Below, piece after piece: positions 23,802-33,731 of a stretch of 36,546 bases of DNA. The DNA comes from a virus. The stretch is taken from IMG/VR virus record IMGVR_UViG_3300033145_000380, positions 1 to 36,546 of that record. One strand, given 5' to 3'. Position 1 is the stretch's first letter. Each line of letters starts with the position of its first letter. The position numbers were made by a program, and so were the translations under genes. The notes beneath the pieces were generated by a model. It ran no database searches and had not been told where the DNA came from. It saw only the letters and a list, made by a program, of their open reading frames with translations.

Positions 23802-25094
23802 CTACCTCCGGGGTCTATATCCCCTGAATCCTGGTTTGATTATCGGGGCGGAGTTATAATCTAACTCGGTTATAATATATCTTAAAACATCCGGCCCGTC
23901 ATCGTCCACCTTCAGCGGTTCTTCCTTGTACGGTTTTCCGTCCTCGTATGGCCGCCACCGATAGGTTCCAATCTGACGTATCAATTCGGTGCACGTATCG
24001 AAAATCATCACGCGGGGCCTGCCGTCGATCTGTTCTGCCATTCGTTGCGCGGTGTATTCAATCCCCAGCTTCACTGCCTTATTTGCCGGTTTTGTCGAGA
24101 TATCATGAGACTCATATTCAAGCCGTTCCTGCGCGTCATGATCCGAAACAGTCCAGATATATTTTTCCCCTTTGTCGATAATCTTGCCATCTGCGTTTTT
24201 CTTTTCGCCGGACAATTCCTTTATCTTTTGGGCATGGTCATTTATCAGAGTATGTGATTTGAAGTACTCGCGGTAGATATAGAGCCTGCCGTCTGGATCT
24301 ACCGCGCCCCACAACATGACAAACGGATGGACGGTCCCGAAGTCGATACCGCGGACTCTCTGCCAATCTGCCGGAATCTCGAACGGCTTACAGGTATGCT
24401 TATCTCGTTCGAATCCTTCGTAGATTATTCCCTCGGCAGCTACCCATAGGCCCTTGATTCTACGGTCATACCACATGCCTTTTGGTGTATTCCGTTTTAC
24501 GGTTTCCACGTATTCAGCGGAAAGCGTTTCATTGTCTTCGAGGTTGAAATGGAATGACTTGATTGCCAGGTTGCCGTTGACATCGGTAAGTCCACTCCGG
24601 TCTACGTAATCGGTCTTGACTGTATGATAGGGATGGTCCGGGTTTGTGTCCCAGAATATCCTGGAACCGTTTCCGCTGCATCGCTGGAACGCCTCGACGA
24701 TACTATTCGGATGGTGAGTAGTTACCTCGTTCGCATACCAGCCATACCCAGTCATTCCTTGCATGGGCTTATACGAATTCTCTTTATCGGTTCCGAAACA
24801 ATTCACTTTATGAGGGCCGAGATTGAATCTGCCGAATTGATCCAGGGTGATATTCTTGCCGGTAATATCTGCCAGCGGCTTTACTATGTTTCTCTCAACC
24901 GAACCGATGGTATACCCGGTAACAATAAAATCCTTTGATGGCTTTTCGAATGAGTAAACGTGCGACAACCACAACATATTATCTGCATGGGTTTTGCCGG
25001 AACGGACAGCGCCTTCAAGGATAAGATGGCGCGGCTGATGGGCATTGAAATACTTGATAATCTCGTATTGTTTATCGCAAAGAGGGCCTTTCAT
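23802..25094 (-). CDS. terL: terminase large subunit
   Basis: 430 residues, ATG 25094 overlapping the small terminase stop by 4 bases. ATPase: Walker A GAVRSGKT (28-35), a Walker B-like region around YGWYANEVTT (about 120) and a following SRIFWDTNPDHPYH coupling segment. Nuclease: RGIDFGTVHPFVMLWGAVDP (about 240), then a second acidic region near DHDAQERLEYESHD and a late DDDGPDVLRY. This is the usual two-domain order of headful-type TerL proteins. It powers DNA packaging into the head with the small subunit and portal. Confidence 0.95.
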   Translation of the reverse strand: MKGPLCDKQYEIIKYFNAHQPRHLILEGAVRSGKTHADNMLWLSHVYSFEKPSKDFIVTGYTIGSVERNIVKPLADITGKNITLDQFGRFNLGPHKVNCFGTDKENSYKPMQGMTGYGWYANEVTTHHPNSIVEAFQRCSGNGSRIFWDTNPDHPYHTVKTDYVDRSGLTDVNGNLAIKSFHFNLEDNETLSAEYVETVKRNTPKGMWYDRRIKGLWVAAEGIIYEGFERDKHTCKPFEIPADWQRVRGIDFGTVHPFVMLWGAVDPDGRLYIYREYFKSHTLINDHAQKIKELSGEKKNADGKIIDKGEKYIWTVSDHDAQERLEYESHDISTKPANKAVKLGIEYTAQRMAEQIDGRPRVMIFDTCTELIRQIGTYRWRPYEDGKPYKEEPLKVDDDGPDVLRYIITELDYNSAPIIKPGFRGYRPRR

Positions 25095-25579
25095 TTGCTC
25101 TCAATGGTTCCGATTGCGCGGACCGCTGCCGCCAGTTCTTTCGCGGTGTCATCGTAGCTGTTCAGGACTTCCTGGCGATCGCGCCAATCTTCGGGCAACC
25201 TGTTCTTCAGCCAGAAAATTAAGCTGGTTGAGTTTTCCTTAATCCATTTTCGCCGTTCTACAGATCCGGTAACTTCGCCGTCCGCATCATAAAACGTTTC
25301 GGTTTCGACGACAAAATACCCAAGCCCTGACTTTAGAAGTGCCGCTATCGCCTTATCGTCGGGGGTTTCCTTGCCTCTCTTTAGCGCCTTCCTGAACTCG
25401 GGATAATCTTTTTTCCATTTGTGAAAAGTAGATTCTGCGATCTGAAACCGAACCGCCATGTCCTTGTCGATCATTCCGTGCATAGCCATAAGTTCAACGG
25501 CAAGCGGCGCATACTTGGCATGATACACAGTCGGCCTGCCTGCCTTCTTTTTCACGGCTGGTTTTTTCTTTTTCGCCAT
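25091..25579 (-). CDS. terS: terminase small subunit
   Basis: 162 residues from ATG 25579. An upstream frame with ten more residues has no ribosome binding site. A basic start (MAKKKKPAVKKKAGRPTVYH) leads to a helix-turn-helix: AVRFQIAESTFHKWKKDYPE, where the AESTFHKWK helix reads DNA. The C-terminal part has RKWIKENSTSLIFWLKNRLP, an oligomerisation segment typical of TerS. It recognises phage DNA and hands it to TerL. The gene opens the packaging operon from the divergent region at 25580-25709. Confidence 0.85.
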   Translation of the reverse strand: MAKKKKPAVKKKAGRPTVYHAKYAPLAVELMAMHGMIDKDMAVRFQIAESTFHKWKKDYPEFRKALKRGKETPDDKAIAALLKSGLGYFVVETETFYDADGEVTGSVERRKWIKENSTSLIFWLKNRLPEDWRDRQEVLNSYDDTAKELAAAVRAIGTIESK

Positions 25580-25593
25580 AACAAAGAGTATGT

Positions 25594-25622
25594 ATACAAA
25601 ACTACACATTTACAATAGGCAA
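25594..25622 (-). promoter_or_regulatory. possible promoter before the terminase genes
   Basis: Minus-strand TTGCCT (25617-25622) and TTGTAT (25594-25599), spacer 17 bp. The transcript would start near 25587, only about 8 bases before ATG 25579, so the leader would be very short. The region also holds the palindrome-like GTATAC. Moderate match only. Confidence 0.4.
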
Positions 25623-25904: not shown

Positions 25905-25942
25905 AGCCCCCGGCTAAACTGGGTCCGGGGGCTGCTTTTTTT
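25905..25942 (+). terminator. rho-independent terminator
   Basis: AGCCCCCGG (25905-25913) pairs with CCGGGGGCT (25925-25933), 9 bp, then GC and seven T. It ends the inverted small gene. The T-run touches the last base of the DUF115 stop codon on the other strand, so little bases are left between the two convergent genes. Confidence 0.9.
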
Positions 25943-27431
25943 ATTCTTTGTTTTTATTCCACGCTATCAGCTGCCGAACGCGTCGCATATTTTTGTCAAT
26001 GTCAACCGAATGTTTCTTCTCCAGCTTTCCTTCTTTGCAGTTGGGGCATTCATCGCCTGAGTGATCCTTGCCATCATTGGGCATGGCTTCTATTCCGCAT
26101 TTCGCGCAAGTCAATTTCGTATTCATCTGGACCATAAAATTATTCAGTTCGATTTCCGGGTTCTCACTTTCGATAAAATTGTATCCTACGGGATCGTCTG
26201 CCGTTTCGATAACGTAGCAGCCGATGCTGGCCAGGTACCGATCCGCATGTTTATGTACCCATTCCTGTTTTCGCTTGGTGCCTTTCCTGCCTTGAGTGAG
26301 CACGACTTTATTCACGTCCATGTAGGGCATTTCGGTAATCGTGCCGTGGTCCGTGGTATACGCCGAACTCCCGAGTAGCCGCCATGCCGAGATCATATTT
26401 TTCTTGTAGAAATTCATAATCTTGGTTGAATGTAGTCCGTTATTACTCATGACGGGCTTGTCTTGGTTCCGGCGGATCTCTTCCGGCGTGGGCGGTACGA
26501 ACGGGTGAATATGTTCTTCCCACTCGCACGGTATCACTACCGGAGGTGCATTCCCGCCCAGTTCTGCCACGGTTTCCGGTGTTTTGACCGTGTAGCTGGT
26601 AAACCTTGATTTGCCCGAATGGAACCCAAAGTCACAACCGGCGAGAAACATAACGCCGTACCCGAGGCGGTCGGCAGCAAACAACTGCAACGGCGGGCTA
26701 CAGGCGAAGATTGTAACCTCGGTACGTATCAGCATATTGAATATGGCCTTGTTTCGATCCCCGACCCGTTCGGAATACATATTCCGCTGTGTGGTAGCAT
26801 AAAACGAATCGGGCCTTCCGGAATTCTGCCGGTACAGGAGTATGTCATTCGGCCATTTCTCGATCAGATCCGGCCATACTCCCGGATGCGTGATAAGTTT
26901 AGTCCTGGTACGCGACCAGTTATAACCCTCAACTTCGGCCCAACTCTCGAACGGATCGAGTGCCACAATGTGAGTCGGTTCTATGCCGTGATACACCAGC
27001 GAGAGGGCATGAGAAGGCGAGCAGATAATCCCGCCTTGCCACAATTTCAGCGCCGGCATTGCATCGTCCAGGCTAGGCCCCGATCCGATGATGAAACACG
27101 GCACACCGCCAACCTTCGGTTCGTCGTTCAGATCCCTTGCGCGGCCGTCGGCAATCAGCCGGCGGATGGTATGCAGGTTCACCCCGGAATTATATTCCTC
27201 GTGGATAAGCTGCTTAGTAGCTGTCCCGGCGTTGTATGTGTCCGAATTGCTTCGGATACTGGACTCGTTGTGCATGTCGTTAATTGTTTCTACGATTTCT
27301 GTTTCGGGCCTGCCAAGTTCTTTTTTCAACGCGGCGTTCTCGTTTTGTAGTCTTTCTACCCCGTCGCCGATAGTGTCCAGTTTCGAGAGAATGACTTCCC
27401 CCTTTTCTTCAACGCTACTTTTCTTTGCCAT
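25941..27431 (-). CDS. DUF115 (MptE/Maf-like) protein with C-terminal zinc ribbon
   Basis: 496 residues, ATG 27431 with GGAGG twelve bases upstream, overlapping the cytidylyltransferase end by 17 bases. Residues about 110-160 give PCFIIGSGPSLDDAMPALK, then a SPSHALSLVYHGIEP helix and IVALDPFES, the DUF115 signature (GSGPSLD at 116-122). Family members are Maf-like flagellin glycosylation factors and MptE. The C-terminus has a four-Cys zinc ribbon (TCAKCG, then DECPNCKEG). Next to a CMP-sugar synthetase a nonulosonic-acid transferase role is attractive, but inferred. The N-terminal coiled coil (10-45) is an addition. Confidence 0.75.
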   Translation of the reverse strand: MAKKSSVEEKGEVILSKLDTIGDGVERLQNENAALKKELGRPETEIVETINDMHNESSIRSNSDTYNAGTATKQLIHEEYNSGVNLHTIRRLIADGRARDLNDEPKVGGVPCFIIGSGPSLDDAMPALKLWQGGIICSPSHALSLVYHGIEPTHIVALDPFESWAEVEGYNWSRTRTKLITHPGVWPDLIEKWPNDILLYRQNSGRPDSFYATTQRNMYSERVGDRNKAIFNMLIRTEVTIFACSPPLQLFAADRLGYGVMFLAGCDFGFHSGKSRFTSYTVKTPETVAELGGNAPPVVIPCEWEEHIHPFVPPTPEEIRRNQDKPVMSNNGLHSTKIMNFYKKNMISAWRLLGSSAYTTDHGTITEMPYMDVNKVVLTQGRKGTKRKQEWVHKHADRYLASIGCYVIETADDPVGYNFIESENPEIELNNFMVQMNTKLTCAKCGIEAMPNDGKDHSGDECPNCKEGKLEKKHSVDIDKNMRRVRQLIAWNKNKE

Positions 27432-28215
27432 ATTCGTAATAAACCTCCGGGCCTCGGCCCTTTAATATTTTGTGTTCCATGAACAATTCCACCATCTCTA
27501 AATCCTGATCATCGTCTATGTCATAAGTCTGCCACGCCCGACACGGCACGTAATACAACATCGCAGTACCGAGGATCATTGCATAAGTGACAATATCCCC
27601 GTCAACCTCGTCGTCCTTTATCGCCGTGGACTCGAAGTACCATTCTACCTTCCTGTTCGATTCCCGGTACCTGTCGGCCCACATGATATTCATGGCACCA
27701 GCCGGGATGATAGCCTTTTTACTCTTGTCAACATAGTGCATTATGCAGATTTTTTCTTCCGGCTTCCGTATCCGTCGGTACGAAACTACTTCCTGGACCT
27801 CTGCGCCCAGGACCACCTGCTTGCCGACTCCAATAGGCATATCCTCGGCCTCCTGGAAACGTTCATACAAACGGTCTATGTCATCGGGAAACAGCAACGG
27901 GCTCGTTGCCAATTTGCACAGAAACGGCTCATGTGTGGTATGAAGATCTAGAACGTCGAGCGCGTGTTCAAACGGCACGTTTGCCGCGAACGCCTTATCC
28001 TGTAACCATCCCGGCCGCCAAATAATCTTCGCGCCGTACTGTTCACATATCTCCGCGATTTCGGGCGACTCGGTACTGACATACACCTCATCGATACAAT
28101 GGGCAGCCTTTGCTTGGATGACCGACCACGCTACAAGGGGAATCCCGCAGATTTCCCTGAATGCCTTACGCGGTAGCCTGACTGATGTCGCATGCTGTGG
28201 GATAATGCAGATCAT
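27415..28215 (-). CDS. CMP-sugar synthetase (acylneuraminate/KDO cytidylyltransferase family)
   Basis: 266 residues, ATG 28215, overlapping the upstream gene by 4 bases. The N-terminus has the cytidylyltransferase pattern: IIPQHATSVRLPRKAFREIC with the RLPRK nucleotide loop (14-18), then GIPLVAWSVIQAK and VYVSTESPEIAEICEQYGAK. Such enzymes activate sialic, legionaminic or pseudaminic acids, or KDO, with CTP. I cannot tell which sugar. Its coupling to the DUF115 gene suggests the two modify a glycan or protein, possibly a host surface structure. Length is slightly longer than the family minimum. Confidence 0.85.
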   Translation of the reverse strand: MICIIPQHATSVRLPRKAFREICGIPLVAWSVIQAKAAHCIDEVYVSTESPEIAEICEQYGAKIIWRPGWLQDKAFAANVPFEHALDVLDLHTTHEPFLCKLATSPLLFPDDIDRLYERFQEAEDMPIGVGKQVVLGAEVQEVVSYRRIRKPEEKICIMHYVDKSKKAIIPAGAMNIMWADRYRESNRKVEWYFESTAIKDDEVDGDIVTYAMILGTAMLYYVPCRAWQTYDIDDDQDLEMVELFMEHKILKGRGPEVYYEYGKEK

Positions 28216-28646
28216 TTTTTAGCCGTTTTCGGTTTCGGCTTGTCGGCCTTCGGTTCGGGCGCGTCCGGTTCCTGGATTGGTTCGGGGATCTCGTTGCCGA
28301 CCGAGATGATATACATACCGCCGCAGTGCGGACAGATGTGAAACCCGTCTACCGCCGCCTTGATCCAGTCTTTCTTCGGTGTAGCCGTCCCGCAGGCCAC
28401 ACACTTGAAATAATCATCGTTCTTGAATTTCTTCGCCATACCCAACTCCCATGTACTAGATTTTGATACCTTATTTCCAAGCATCACGAGCATAGAATCC
28501 ATGTGTTGCAACAATTTTCTCGCGATGGTTTTTTCCTCATCGGTTTGCCCGAATTGCGTTCCAAGATTCAAGGCTGTTTCCAAAGCATCCCACGCCATCG
28601 CCTTGATTACGTGCGTTTCGTTCGGTGTAATTTGGTGACTGCTCAT
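28212..28646 (-). CDS. zinc-ribbon protein between permease and cytidylyltransferase genes, 144 aa
   Basis: ATG 28646 with GGGAGGGG upstream, overlapping the MalG-like gene by 4 bases and the cytidylyltransferase by 4. The first 70 residues are helical (MAWDALETALNLGTQFGQTD), then a zinc ribbon: FKCVACGT and HICPHCGGM (CxxC and CxxC). The C-terminus is Pro/Lys-rich, PEPIQEPDAPEPKADKPKPK. I do not recognise it. It resembles phage zinc-ribbon proteins and ties the sugar module to the phage operon by overlaps. Confidence 0.65.
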   Translation of the reverse strand: MSSHQITPNETHVIKAMAWDALETALNLGTQFGQTDEEKTIARKLLQHMDSMLVMLGNKVSKSSTWELGMAKKFKNDDYFKCVACGTATPKKDWIKAAVDGFHICPHCGGMYIISVGNEIPEPIQEPDAPEPKADKPKPKTAKK

Positions 28647-29455
28647 TTCTCAACCCCTCCCAGGACAGTAGTAAAATACTTATTCGCAACCGCAAATATC
28701 AGAACCAGCGGCAGTAACAAAACAACACCCGCCGCCAAGGATTGCCCTATCGGATTCAGATTCGTCTCAGATCCGCCACCTCGCAGCATTACAGTTCGTG
28801 TAAGCCCGACAAGCAACGTCTGTACTCGCGGTCTCTGCAATACCAGCATTTGCCACATATAGTCTTGTAGGCTGGCAATCGCGGCGAACAGGGCAAGTGC
28901 TGTGATTATCGGCCTGGATACCGGCACCACAATTCGGGCAAGTATCTGTAGTTCAGTGGCACCGTCCATCCTCGCGGATTCAAGAATCGACCCCGGAACC
29001 GTAGAAAAAAAAGCCCGTGCCAGGAACATGCCAACCGGAGAAAACCCCGTGGCGAGAATTACGGCAGTCAACGTGCCGGACATACCGAGTTTATTTATCA
29101 CCACAAACAGCGGTACAATGATCGAGATCCGGGGTATCATAATCCCGGCAAGCAGAAACAGCCAGAGGACTCGCTGCGCCTTGAACTCGTAGAACGCGAA
29201 CGAGTACCCCGCCGATACCGACAATCCTACCGACAATGTTACTGACAACGCAACCGTCAATATCGTGTTGATTGCCCACCGTGGAACCGCGGACTGTCCG
29301 AGCAGCCTGCCGTAATTTTCCAGCGTAGGATCTTCCGGAAATATCCGGGGCGGCATCATCATGACACCGTAGGAATCCTGCAGGCTGCCGGTGAACATCC
29401 AGTAGACCGGCGCGAGGAGGAGGAGGAACAGGATTATTAGGATGGGGCGGGTCAC
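28643..29455 (-). CDS. sugar ABC transporter permease, MalG/UgpE type
   Basis: 270 residues, GTG 29455 overlapping the upstream permease stop by 4 bases. Six membrane segments are visible, the last being VLLLPLVLIFAVANKYF. The conserved EAA loop, which contacts the ATPase, is at about 159-182: ESARMDGATELQILARIVVP. Order and features match the second permease of CUT1 carbohydrate importers. No ATPase gene lies nearby, so it would need a host ATPase such as the shared MsmX/UgpC type. Finding a CUT1 permease inside a phage operon is unusual. Confidence 0.9.
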   Translation of the reverse strand: MTRPILIILFLLLLAPVYWMFTGSLQDSYGVMMMPPRIFPEDPTLENYGRLLGQSAVPRWAINTILTVALSVTLSVGLSVSAGYSFAFYEFKAQRVLWLFLLAGIMIPRISIIVPLFVVINKLGMSGTLTAVILATGFSPVGMFLARAFFSTVPGSILESARMDGATELQILARIVVPVSRPIITALALFAAIASLQDYMWQMLVLQRPRVQTLLVGLTRTVMLRGGGSETNLNPIGQSLAAGVVLLLPLVLIFAVANKYFTTVLGGVEK

Positions 29456-30261
29456 CCTTCAATCCTCCGTTTAACAATCGTCAATCCTGCAGTAACAGCC
29501 AGCAACACAACCGCCTGTGCCGATGCCAGCCCGAACCGCCCGAACTGAAATGCCTCGCGGTAGATATGAAATGTCACCGTTGCAGTATACGAATACGGCG
29601 CCAGGGCATAAATCGTTTCGAATATCTGCAGGCTGGCTATCATCGCCAACAACGTCACCAATGCCAGCATGGGCCTGAGTAACGGAACGATGATACTCCG
29701 CTTGATTCTCGCGCCGGTAGCCCCGTCCATCTTTGCCGCGTCGTACAGGCTGGTATCAATACCGAGAATACCAGCAAGGAGAATAATCGTGGTTCCTCCC
29801 AGTCCTGCCGTAACCACGATCAACGCGATTGCCGGAATCGCGGTTCCTGCCTGCGCGAACCATGCGATACTGTGTTTCCCCAACATCCAATTCACCGGTC
29901 CTTGACTATGGAAAATCCATCGCCATGATTGCGCGATGATAATCCCGGCCGCCAATGCCGGAACGTAGAATATAATCCTTACCGCGTCATGCCAGCATTT
30001 CCGGAAATTGAATACCGACAACGCAACCATGAGCGCGGTACCGGTTTGCCCGACAACCATAATCAGCATGTAGAACGCCGAGTTCAGCCATGACCGCATA
30101 AACGTAGAATCGGTAAACGCCTGGACATAATTCCCCATGCCGACAAATTCCGTTGTGATGAAATTCGTTTTCAACATCGAGTATTGAATCAGGGTAACAA
30201 TCGGCCATGCAGAGAACACAATAGCGAATAGTAGGGCCGGGGCGAGAAGGATGTATTTCAC
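29452..30261 (-). CDS. sugar ABC transporter permease, MalF/UgpA type
   Basis: 269 residues, GTG 30261 overlapping the upstream small gene by 4 bases. N-terminal signal-anchor helix (ILLAPALLFAIVFSAWPIV), six membrane segments, and the EAA loop at about 173-197: YDAAKMDGATGARIKRSIIV then PLLRP. It pairs with the next gene to form the transmembrane channel of a CUT1-type importer. Length is shorter than full MalF and typical of UgpA/MsmF. The sugar cannot be named from sequence alone. Confidence 0.9.
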   Translation of the reverse strand: MKYILLAPALLFAIVFSAWPIVTLIQYSMLKTNFITTEFVGMGNYVQAFTDSTFMRSWLNSAFYMLIMVVGQTGTALMVALSVFNFRKCWHDAVRIIFYVPALAAGIIIAQSWRWIFHSQGPVNWMLGKHSIAWFAQAGTAIPAIALIVVTAGLGGTTIILLAGILGIDTSLYDAAKMDGATGARIKRSIIVPLLRPMLALVTLLAMIASLQIFETIYALAPYSYTATVTFHIYREAFQFGRFGLASAQAVVLLAVTAGLTIVKRRIEG

Positions 30262-30539
30262 GAAAGACCGCCGTGAAAACGTTGATGTTCTGCTTCTAAC
30301 TCTGGATTGCTCCCTTTCTTCACAAAAAACGCATAACCAAATTCATCATGATTGTCCGCGAAGGCATACTTTACCAGTATTTTCTCTCCAAATACGTTAG
30401 CGGGAACCAGTCTTGCATCAACCGGTATTACTGCCGTGCCACTTGGCGTTGCCATTGTTTCACAAAAGAAGCCCTCCGTTGCTTTTACGTAATTGAGCAA
30501 GCCATGATCTATGTTTTCATCAAAATATTTATCGTACAT
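30258..30539 (-). CDS. small protein between binding protein and permease genes, 93 aa
   Basis: ATG 30539, stop overlapping the permease start by 4 bases (GTGA). Beginning MYDKYFDENIDHGLLNYVKA, it has a beta-rich middle (AVIPVDARLVPANVFGEKIL) and an alpha/beta end with FADNHDEFGYAFFVKKGSN. There are no membrane segments. A longer start at 30584 would run through the tRNA-like segment. I do not recognise the family. Coupling suggests co-function with the transporter, or a phage gene trapped in the operon. Confidence 0.5.
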   Translation of the reverse strand: MYDKYFDENIDHGLLNYVKATEGFFCETMATPSGTAVIPVDARLVPANVFGEKILVKYAFADNHDEFGYAFFVKKGSNPELEAEHQRFHGGLS

Positions 30540-30540
30540 A

Positions 30541-30565
30541 CGGCACTCGCGGGAGTCGAACCCGC
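30541..30565 (-). other. tRNA 3'-end-like segment (T-arm plus acceptor strand)
   Basis: On the minus strand GCGGG-TTCGACT-CCCGC (30549-30565) is a perfect T-arm with the TTCGANT loop consensus, followed by GAGTGCCG, an acceptor-like strand. No D-arm or proper 5' acceptor partner lies at the right distance (the best upstream partner gives a molecule about 57 nt long), so it is not a full tRNA. Such fragments are typical of phage attachment sites in tRNA genes, or of remnants carried with captured host DNA. It touches the start codon at 30539. Confidence 0.45.
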
Positions 30566-30598
30566 AGACCCGGCTAAATCTCATTGCCTGTCAGCGCC

Positions 30599-30673
30599 AA
30601 AAATCGGGATAGGATGTATGAAGGGGAGAACGTCTACCCACCCCTTTGTTACCTCCGGGGCATCCCATCCCGA
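30599..30673 (-). terminator. long hairpin terminator or stabiliser after the binding-protein gene
   Basis: On the minus strand 13 bases (30661-30673) pair with 13 bases (30604-30616), one G-U, and five T follow (30599-30603). The 44-nt loop can form CCCC/GGGG sub-hairpins. It starts six bases after the stop of the binding protein. Partial termination here would give more binding protein than permease, as seen in other sugar ABC operons. Confidence 0.6.
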
Positions 30674-30678
30674 ACAAA

Positions 30679-31968
30679 TTACTTCAATGCTTCGTTCAGT
30701 GCTTTCTCATATGCGGCAATCGAATCAGCAGGTGTCATTTCCATGTTTAGGACTCTCTGCAGTACAGGAAAATGCTGTGCTCTCGCGGCCATGTACCTCG
30801 GATTGGTAATGCCGACATCGAACAGCCCGTTGCTTCTCACAATACCCTGGATCTGTGCCGTCCATTCGTCGGTAGGTGAAACCGTAACGTCTTTCCGATT
30901 GGCAAGTACGCCCTGAATCAGAACCGCCGCCGTCTGTATCTCTGCCGAGTTCAGATATTCAACCATCCTCGCTGCCACGGCATCCTCGTCGGTCCCGGTT
31001 TCATGTACAACCATCGCGGCGCAGGAATTATACGTCGGTACAAAATCAACTCCTGGTCCGCGGGGAAACGGCACAAACTTATAATCAAACGGCGCATATC
31101 CCTGTTTGGCTACTACGTCGAAATACGGCTTGATCCACGGCTGGAAAAACGCGGTAGCTGCCAAGTCGCCCTTTGCCCAATCGAGGACATAATCATCATC
31201 CACCTGTGTCGCGGCGTCACCCCGAATGTACCCTTCGTGCATGAGTAGCTGGAAAAACTCGTGAACCGCAGCACCGCCGGTCGAGGCAATCGTAGTTTTC
31301 GAGTAATCCCCGGACGCGTAGAAATCAGCACCGAAGGCAGCAAACCAGTTGTTAATCAGATAATCACCGGACATATTGCCGGCAAACATCCCGGTTGCCC
31401 ATTTTGAACCACCGTATTTCTGTTTTACCAGTTCGGCCATTTCGAGGAAGTCGGCAATGGTCCAGTTATCGGGAACGTCATAACCGATATCGGCCATGAG
31501 CTCTAGATTGATTGCCATGCCTTGAGCAGATCCAGGTTGAGGCAACGCAAGCAGATTCCCGTTCCGGCGATACGGCGCAAGAGTTTCAACAGGATACTGG
31601 TCGAGGTCATGGACGAACCTATCCAGCGGAAGGGCATAATCGGCCACAATGTACGATGAAGCACGGCCTATGTAGTCCATGTAGACATTCGGCGCCTGCC
31701 CCGATGCGAGTAGCGCGGTCATCGTCATCGCCGAACCATCCGCCAGGTCAATCTGCAACTCGGTTATTGTTGCCCCAGGAAAATCTTCCTTGACCCGCGA
31801 AATTGCCCATCCGATATTCGTGCCGAGATCGCCGAGATCCGCGACGCCTGAATACAGGATGGAAATCTCGATTGGGGTAGGTGCCTCCGCGTCTACTTCA
31901 GCGCTTGGCGCCGCGAATACTGCCGCAGCCAACAGAATGAAGAGAAAAAATGTAAAAATCTGTTTCAT
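30679..31968 (-). CDS. extracellular solute-binding protein of a sugar ABC transporter
   Basis: 429 residues, ATG 31968 with AAGGAG. Signal peptide MKQIFTFFLFILLAAAVFAA (no lipobox Cys, so signal peptidase I, cleavage near VFA/APS), typical of Gram-negative periplasmic binding proteins. Mature part has the family-1 (CUT1) fold: IEISILYSG strand, GSAMTMTALLASGQAPNVYM, LPLDRF, NWTIADFLEMAELVKQKYG, GDLAATAFFQPWIKPYFD and WTAQIQGIVRSNG. It should capture a sugar or oligosaccharide and deliver it to the two permeases. It has its own promoter upstream and a hairpin downstream. Confidence 0.9.
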   Translation of the reverse strand: MKQIFTFFLFILLAAAVFAAPSAEVDAEAPTPIEISILYSGVADLGDLGTNIGWAISRVKEDFPGATITELQIDLADGSAMTMTALLASGQAPNVYMDYIGRASSYIVADYALPLDRFVHDLDQYPVETLAPYRRNGNLLALPQPGSAQGMAINLELMADIGYDVPDNWTIADFLEMAELVKQKYGGSKWATGMFAGNMSGDYLINNWFAAFGADFYASGDYSKTTIASTGGAAVHEFFQLLMHEGYIRGDAATQVDDDYVLDWAKGDLAATAFFQPWIKPYFDVVAKQGYAPFDYKFVPFPRGPGVDFVPTYNSCAAMVVHETGTDEDAVAARMVEYLNSAEIQTAAVLIQGVLANRKDVTVSPTDEWTAQIQGIVRSNGLFDVGITNPRYMAARAQHFPVLQRVLNMEMTPADSIAAYEKALNEALK

Positions 31969-32546: not shown

Positions 32547-32893
32547 ATTTCCCCTCTGGCCTTTTTATTTCTGGCAACTTTCATCAGCACAATTTCCATA
32601 AGCTGCCCGACCTCGACCTTCATGTCTCTTGCGCCTGGTTCTGGTAATGCAGGACGATATGGTTTTATTTCATCAGGGTCCGGCCTGATGTCTTTCCTAG
32701 CGACTTCCAGGGTAGCAACATCTGGCGTGAAATTATATTGCGTCGAGAATGCGCGTATCAAGTAATTGGATAATTTATCCAGGTTGTATTCTGGAATAGT
32801 TAGAATATATTCCCCCACCGCCCTACGAAGCCCCGGACGTGGGTACTTTCCGTAATACTCTTCAAGCCATACAAAAAACTCTTTATGATTCAT
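32543..32893 (-). CDS. replication-associated phage protein, 116 aa
   Basis: ATG 32893 with GGAGGAAATATTTC upstream, overlapping the preceding replication gene end by 11 bases. N-terminal HKEFFVWLEEYYGKYPRPGL, then a helical segment ILTIPEYNLDKLSNYLIRAF with QYNFTPDVATLEVARKDIRP. Small helical proteins at this position after an initiator can act as helicase loaders (lambda P/DnaI-like), but no ATP-binding motif is present. Assignment is by context only. Confidence 0.5.
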   Translation of the reverse strand: MNHKEFFVWLEEYYGKYPRPGLRRAVGEYILTIPEYNLDKLSNYLIRAFSTQYNFTPDVATLEVARKDIRPDPDEIKPYRPALPEPGARDMKVEVGQLMEIVLMKVARNKKARGEI

Positions 32894-33731
32894 GAAATAT
32901 TTCCTCCAACATTTTATCATCATCCACGTTCTTCATCTCTTCAGTTTTGAGATGTTCTCGAACACGCGTCCACAGAGAAACAAGTGTAGTAGGCAAGAAC
33001 GGCTGTGTTCTCCAGAATCCCTTCTTTGAATCGTCATCCTCTTTTAACTCACGAAATTTTTTCATCATAGCCTGAAGCACTACCTCGGGTTCGCCTGCGT
33101 CCGAAGAAAGTTTATACAGTCGATTGATTGCGTCAACTTGTTTTGTGTTGTCGGGAAGGAAGGTTCCGTAAACGGTCTCGAATGTTTTGTATGCTGCTTG
33201 GCAGAGTTTTTGATTATTTGAAAATACGCGCACTTTCCCACTCCTGTTTGTGTCTGTGTTAAGGTTACTGTCTATATCTAGTCTGGCTCTAGATAGTTCA
33301 AGGGGCTTATAAGGGGCTTCAAGGGGCTTCAAGGGCCTTATTACTTCGGAAAGGTACTTATACCGATAATTGATGTCGTGAACCGCTTCCCATATTTCTT
33401 CCGGCAGTTCGAGAAGTACCGCGTCAATTCCTTTACGGCAGTTATCGCGTTCTGAAACTCTTTGATGCTTCGGCCACGAAGGAATAATCAACCATTCGCC
33501 ACGCCGATATACCTTTTTTTCTTGTTCAAAGAATTCCCACATATCGAGTATTTCTTTAGAGGAAAAACCAGTATCAAAAGAAATACGCCGATTAGTTATC
33601 TGGTAGATCCCGGCGATATTTGTCAGTGGATTCGACAGCAGGTACAGATAGAATAACTTCTGTAGTTTGGTTGCTTCCTGAACCCATTCGTCATCCCAAA
33701 AACTAGTAGAGATATAGCGTTGTTTTCCCAT
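32883..33731 (-). CDS. phage replication initiation protein (DnaD/O-like)
   Basis: 282 residues, ATG 33731. N-terminal winged-helix region starts MGKQRYISTSFWDDEWVQEA and LQKLFYLYLLSNPLTNIAGI, then EGYW-like wing (GEWLIIPSWPKHQRVSERDN). This wing-helix start is typical of phage initiators fused to DnaD-type C-terminal parts. The middle (RPLKPLEAPYKPLEL) is encoded by a direct repeat that could be origin iterons, as in lambda O. It probably binds and opens the origin and recruits the host helicase. Confidence 0.75.
   Translation of the reverse strand: MGKQRYISTSFWDDEWVQEATKLQKLFYLYLLSNPLTNIAGIYQITNRRISFDTGFSSKEILDMWEFFEQEKKVYRRGEWLIIPSWPKHQRVSERDNCRKGIDAVLLELPEEIWEAVHDINYRYKYLSEVIRPLKPLEAPYKPLELSRARLDIDSNLNTDTNRSGKVRVFSNNQKLCQAAYKTFETVYGTFLPDNTKQVDAINRLYKLSSDAGEPEVVLQAMMKKFRELKEDDDSKKGFWRTQPFLPTTLVSLWTRVREHLKTEEMKNVDDDKMLEEIFHES
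33275..33337. other. origin-like region: inverted repeat plus four direct repeats
   Basis: TATCTAG/CTAGATA flank a 7-base loop (33275-33295). Directly after lie four near-copies of TTCAAGGGGC at 33297-33306, 33307-33317 (11 bp, ATA variant), 33318-33327 and 33328-33337. They lie inside the initiator gene, as origins do in lambda-type phages. Candidate only. Confidence 0.4.

Follow-up and report, generated by a model that had tools for sequence, protein, structure and literature searches.

A phage-borne CUT1-type importer without its own ATPase, linked to a cytidylyltransferase and a putative Maf-like transferase

In Streptococcus pneumoniae, sialic acid uptake is described as the task of SatABC, an importer that works with the shared ATPase MsmK (PMC4519317). 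Here, we report on an importer of comparable make-up that is encoded by a phage. It resides in the IMG/VR virus record IMGVR_UViG_3300033145_000380, which was analyzed over its whole length of 36,546 bases (hereafter the window), and consists of a solute-binding protein (SBP) of the CUT1 type and two permeases resembling MalF and MalG. The likeness to SatABC, as far as the latter is portrayed in its report (PMC4519317), extends to the combination of one binding protein with two permeases, to an ATPase that would be provided by another system and, if our reading is correct, to a substrate of the sialic acid type. It is a likeness of subunit make-up. SatABC is, by the same account, chromosomal, whereas the phage importer is phage-borne and permanently linked to genes for a cytidylyltransferase (CTase) and a putative sugar transferase. 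The phage SBPs furthermore differ from SatABC in having no lipobox.

A second point of comparison is provided by the nonulosonate systems for flagellin, which comprise NeuB/PseI, a cytidine monophosphate (CMP)-sugar synthetase and Maf. As in these systems, a gene for a CMP-sugar synthetase lies beside one for a transferase with a PF01973 domain, and some of the phages encode NeuB, whereas in most of them import replaces synthesis. The phage transferase, an MptE-like protein, aligns with the central region of Maf only (Maf 238-514). Auxiliary metabolic genes of phages include pstS, which encodes a transport component. Transport is phage-borne in both cases, but the cassette described here comprises all importer subunits except the ATPase and, in addition, its own enzymes for sugar activation and transfer. 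In Acinetobacter baumannii, the prophage genes epaA and epaB are described as modifying a nonulosonic acid made by the host and would thus be a further case in which phage genes target nonulosonic acids found on the host surface (PMC12053666). As described there, they alter a sugar that the host produces, while the phage cassette would bring import or synthesis, activation and transfer. A phage sugar importer is not described in the titles and abstract beginnings searched in the open-access PMC literature, which is not to say that none has appeared in print.

On the evidence presented below, the balance tips slightly in favor of the importer supplying a phage-encoded cassette for sugar transfer, one that handles a sugar of the nonulosonic acid type by import, CMP activation and transfer. 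The SBP and the MalF- and MalG-like permeases, run on a borrowed host ATPase, would bring in such a sugar or a close precursor, with sialic, pseudaminic or legionaminic acid-like compounds as candidates. The NeuA/PseF-like CTase would convert the sugar and cytidine triphosphate (CTP) to the CMP-sugar, and the Maf-like protein would move the sugar onto an acceptor, protein or glycan, that belongs to either virion or host. In phages of this kind without importer, the sugar would be made by a NeuB that they encode themselves.

All genes and elements of the window for which coordinates are given here lie on the minus strand, and in the direction of transcription the order is SBP, an open reading frame (ORF) of 108 residues, MalF-like permease, MalG-like permease, a small protein, CTase, MptE-like protein and the small and large terminase subunits TerS and TerL. 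The CTase (27415..28215) matches CTP_transf_3 (2.9e-16; 60.4 bits versus a cut-off of 22.6). In a profile search its best match was NeuA with 3.7e-30, KdsB being weaker, and the window protein alone matched NeuA 9ftb with 8.9e-15; the best NCBIfam model was PseF (4.2e-22). The MptE-like protein (25941..27431), which has a four-cysteine motif at its C-terminus and is a putative CMP-sugar transferase, matches PF01973 with 1.4e-12 and 48.2 bits (cut-off 34.6). An AlphaFold2 (AF2) model built with 12 relatives (predicted local distance difference test, pLDDT, 83.3) has the fold of the central Maf domain, as judged from its match to the Maf glycosyltransferase 5mu5 (Z 20.2, root mean square deviation 3.0, 234 aligned residues). 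Further matches were the archaeal HPPK (Z 14.2), SteA (about 10), CstII (9.2) and ST8SiaIII (8.8), and Foldseek concurred on Maf and archaeal HPPK. The central Maf domain is described as PF01973 (Maf_flag10, pfam01973) and Cst-II-like, and Maf enzymes as accepting CMP-nonulosonates, including CMP-N-acetylneuraminic acid (CMP-Neu5Ac) (PMC11339370). The cut-off of the NCBIfam model FlagModPseD (670 bits) was not reached, the window protein scoring 12 bits (E 0.057) and that of locus L018 25.3. Tandem gene copies occur in individual relatives, namely two MptE-like genes in L016 (14383-15801 and 15932-17329) and duplicate CTase genes in L020 (8012-8812 and 8790-9575).

These enzymes could instead belong to another CMP-sugar pathway, such as one for sugars like 3-deoxy-D-manno-octulosonic acid (KDO) or for an envelope glycan of the host. 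Alternatively, the MptE-like protein could be a diphosphokinase of the pterin or nucleotide type, and in either case the importer would supply a precursor. The KdsB matches of the CTase, the HPPK fold match and the genes of the aminotransferase, aldo/keto reductase and SIS types that L055, L058 and L059 have close to the cassette are compatible with such functions. However, NeuA and PseF outscore KdsB in both searches, the Maf match exceeds that to HPPK in both strength and length, and the synthase found in relatives that do not have the importer is NeuB. We therefore consider this explanation improbable.

The distribution of NeuB is part of our argument that the cassette handles a nonulosonic acid-type sugar. 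We searched 38 records over their whole length for Pfam families; these records derive in part from searches with the importer and in part from searches with the transferase, and are mostly fragments and mutually related; L081 (581 bases) and the CTase loci L109-L144 stand outside this set. Permeases were found in 23 records and NeuB in 5, one of them by a weak match (G031, E 4e-4), while none had both and 10 had neither. Among the 28 records with CTP_transf_3, the corresponding numbers are 22, 5, 0 and 1. The single CTase record with neither is G024, in which the CTase starts 335 bases from the contig end. The other nine records without permease or NeuB are G020 and G021, which like G024 have their start inside the CTase or a short way ahead of it, G023 and G025, whose start falls inside the transferase, and G032 and G034-G037, which contain distant PF01973 relatives only and no match to CTP_transf_3. 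When only those 22 CTase records are considered that were found by the transferase query alone, 16 have the importer, 5 NeuB, none both and one neither (Fisher p 2.3e-4; p 1.3e-3 when duplicates are collapsed and the weak NeuB match is dropped), but these p-values ignore the kinship of records that are mostly fragments and were partly picked with importer queries, so they serve as a guide only and this weighs against our reading. In L059, genes for NeuB, a radical-SAM protein and an SIS protein directly precede those for the CTase and the transferase, and in the circular G016 the same NeuB order spans the junction of the contig ends, which overlap by 127 bases. In L061, genes for the MptE-like protein, a LegC/PseC-like aminotransferase, an SDR protein and NeuB stand in a row. 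Several of the loci L109-L144, scanned with custom models, combine CTase and NeuB and have no MptE-like protein. Genes for NeuB, a B12-type radical-SAM protein, an SIS isomerase and a class-III aminotransferase lie beside the CTase and the Maf-like gene in L059 (1256-11266) and G016 (end of L146 and start of L058); these gene groups are apparent phage-borne sugar synthesis clusters.

The original prediction regarded the importer as a free-standing set of metabolic genes that raises sugar uptake in infected cells or lysogens. In such a scenario an ordinary carbohydrate would be fed to the cell, and the CTase and transferase would be unrelated neighbors. The substrates of CUT1 importers are mostly mono- and oligosaccharides, and the best fold matches of the SBP bind oligosaccharides; in addition, the slot is filled by importers of more than one subfamily. 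On the other hand, the linkage to CTase and transferase is fixed even where TerL and portal protein are without similarity, and NeuB is present in relatives without importer. This combination speaks for a role in glycosylation that uses an acidic sugar, rather than for a supply of carbon. In its original form, the metabolic claim is thus not supported, and we consider ordinary carbohydrate uptake unlikely, though it is the alternative that deserves most attention.

The importer itself is intact. The SBP (30679..31968; 429 residues) starts with an ATG at 31968 that is preceded by AGGAG, has a signal sequence and matches SBP_bac_8 (4.2e-14) and SBP_bac_1 (3.7e-12), both above cut-off. Its AF2 model (pLDDT 90.2) matched carbohydrate SBPs with Z 32-36. 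The structural comparison that had been proposed as a means to name the sugar hence confirmed a carbohydrate SBP fold and singled out no sugar, many SBPs matching equally. The MalF-like permease (29452..30261; 269 residues) scored 24.1 bits against BPD_transp_1 as a single ORF, slightly below the cut-off of 26.4; in the search of the whole record (G000), the window had two BPD_transp_1 matches, both above cut-off. The MalG-like permease (28643..29455; 270 residues) reached 46.7 bits. The nearest NCBIfam models are UgpA (3.9e-20) and UgpE (8.1e-25), respectively, with scores far below the cut-offs of these models, and the EAA loops of both permeases are intact. Two hallmarks of a CUT1 importer, a type 1 carbohydrate SBP and a pair of BPD_transp_1 permeases with EAA loops, are present and the third, a MalK-type ATPase, is missing. 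As anticipated in the original prediction, there was no ABC_tran match in the window, nor did any of the 38 whole records contain one above the Pfam cut-off (five had weak sub-threshold matches). The importer, if it works, would therefore have to use a host ATPase.

A lipobox was absent from all 16 phage SBPs checked, and in the alignment the first 60 residues of the window SBP, counted from 31968, contain no cysteine. The absence of the lipobox from these sequences suggests a diderm host; the style of the signal peptide may resemble that of spirochaetes. All three importer genes are under purifying selection, as divergence at second codon positions amounts to 0.28-0.44 of that at third positions in comparison with three relatives. 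Phages often encode membrane proteins for superinfection exclusion, and SBP and permeases might accordingly alter the host surface or exclude other phages without transporting anything. The retention of three subunits, of both EAA loops and of the signal sequence, together with strong purifying selection, makes such interference very unlikely.

The same arrangement recurs in many IMG/VR contigs, which were gathered by scans of viral contigs, first with single proteins and later with alignments, some pairs representing one phage twice (L009/L010, L011/L012). The genes for SBP, MalF, MalG, CTase and MptE-like protein, often followed by terminase, appear in an order that is constant in every contig examined that spans the region and has both the importer and the MptE-like gene; in L136 and L141, permeases and CTase were found with no MptE-like match in the loci read. 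The search of other phages for the same gene set, suggested beforehand, was thus successful, and the importer proteins are between 69% and 27% identical to those of the window. Locus L068 resembles the window in SBP (54%), MalF (50%) and MalG (56%), and its TerL and portal protein are without detectable similarity. Conversely, L055 has a TerL and a CTase that are 75% and 69% identical to those of the window, but its slot is filled by a CUT1 importer of another kind, with low identity in SBP (28%), MalF (34%) and MalG (38%). The permease type of L053 is that of L055, and L069 has a third type. Because an importer similar to that of the window is found in L068 on a backbone without detectable similarity and a different one is present in L055, the slot is retained while its importer is swapped. 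In L055 (137-10338), the same operon holds genes for the CUT1 importer, a BNR_2 protein, an aldo/keto reductase and a class-III aminotransferase. The BNR_2 protein, encoded before the importer and of a domain type seen in sialidases, is suggestive only.

Cellular relatives are distant. A genome scan limited to two peptide patterns retrieved Paenibacillus permeases alone, at 28-35% identity, such that closer cellular relatives may exist, and a plasmid scan yielded SBPs at 22-25%. Among annotated phage records, MalG had 85 matches, all below 60% identity (26-33% and unannotated among the 20 of 85 that were listed), the SBP and the transferase had none, and the CTase matched, in part, a single record, which bears the name of the bacterium Moritella viscosa; these matches did not provide useful relatives. 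A MalG tree contains few cellular rows and very long branches (L099, L136, L055, L105) and does not test a single phage origin. The AT skew at 29-32 kb, which is unlike that of neighboring minus-strand genes, could be read as a sign of an assembly chimera or a recently captured host fragment. This possibility was rejected, and we attach next to no probability to it: the same order in many independent contigs bears out the view that the arrangement did not arise by an assembly join. Close cellular relatives were not found either, identity being about 30% in the genome scan restricted to two peptide patterns and 24% in plasmids.

Several further points weigh against a nonulosonic acid-specific cassette. 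The fold of the SBP fits many carbohydrate SBPs equally and names no ligand, and its closest matches are binders of neutral oligosaccharides. Other CUT1 subfamilies occupy the slot in L055 and L069, and several sugars may be used. The CTase does not reach the cut-off of the PseF equivalog (TIGR03584; 205.7 bits), the window protein scoring 78.9 and its relatives 75-95 bits. The ARGGS motif, part of the N-terminal NeuA/PseF motif ARGGS-R-P-KN, is retained by most of 12 relatives in the alignment but missing from the window CTase, which reads PQHATS-RLPRKA at this position; L008 is similar. As regards the transferase, its PF01973 relationship extends equally to archaeal HPPK. Finally, this phage group has no isolate, and we infer both host and acceptor.

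The original prediction had the importer genes joined to their neighbors by 4-base overlaps. This holds for the 108-residue ORF and malF and for malF and malG (GTGA in both cases) as well as for malG and the small-protein gene and for the latter and the CTase gene (ATGA in both cases), but not for the SBP gene, which is separated from malF by about 420 nucleotides (nt). This gap contains a hairpin, a tRNA-like element and the small ORF. The stem-loop (30600..30678) has a minimum free energy of -33.8 kcal/mol and a z-score of -2.57, and strong stem-loops were also found in the SBP-malF gaps of L008 (-2.87), L009 (-3.57), L016 (-4.42) and L017 (-6.61). In Escherichia coli, the malE-malF gap also contains structures, which keep the binding protein in excess. 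The tRNA-like element (30541..30598) has an acceptor stem, one arm and a canonical T arm and ends 2 nt before an ATG; the ORF overlapping it (30258..30584), which matches no family, would encode 108 residues or, from this ATG, 93. Similar elements are located in the SBP-malF gap of L008 (1863-1934), L009 (8267-8324) and L069 (5249-5358) and before the CTase gene in L014 (12852-12929). A start codon follows at 2 nt in the window, L008 and L009 and at 13 nt in L014, and the L069 copy has no ORF of 50 or more codons nearby. A strict scan gave four matches in 502 kb (window, L008, L009, L014) versus 0.0 expected from shuffled sequences; a relaxed scan gave seven, including the L069 copy, in 590 kb versus 0.4 expected, and three in 632 kb of Paenibacillus loci as a control. 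Fold z-scores are uneven (-1.56 for the window copy, -2.49, -4.45 and +0.23 for three others). Neither the window nor any of the 18 loci submitted to ARAGORN gave a tRNA call, and Rfam returned nothing above gathering score, the L014 copy matching tmRNA and mascRNA below theirs. Judged from these sequences, the elements are possible RNA-processing sites. As a reading that is somewhat less likely than not, we put forward a widespread phage cassette in which an acidic nine-carbon sugar, scavenged by the phage importer on a host ATPase or made by NeuB, would be activated by the phage CMP-synthetase and used by the Maf-like transferase to decorate proteins of phage or host in the course of infection, with an exchangeable importer and a tRNA-like element that would set separate expression of SBP and permeases.

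The predicted position of the importer (28643-31968) between phage genes for replication and packaging was confirmed. Upstream lies the gene for a replisome organizer/DnaD-like (DnaA-like/DnaD-like) protein (32883..33731; PHROG 6251, 2.6e-18; PHROG 1701, 2.1e-15), and downstream are those for TerS (25091..25609; PHROG 309, 1.2e-38) and TerL (23802..25094; Terminase_6N), the latter being 34% identical to a staphylococcal phage TerL. The small protein between MalG and CTase (28212..28646) has a weak zinc-ribbon match and was found in the closest relatives only. Further genes in the window are clearly of phage type and encode a helicase, a RecE-like exonuclease, tape measure, major head, minor head and portal proteins. 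Within the head gene block, a protein encoded at 20483-21394 matches a PHROG annotated as transposase (1.1e-26).

If our reading is true, some phages, besides redirecting host metabolism, would have a dedicated route for taking up a building block of glycosylation that sister phages synthesize de novo instead, and import would be added to the known ways in which phages rework surface sugars. The partition between import and NeuB makes the substrate class directly testable with purified binding protein. Phage-borne ABC permeases would thereby gain a testable role, and importer subunits would persist in phages on a borrowed ATPase.

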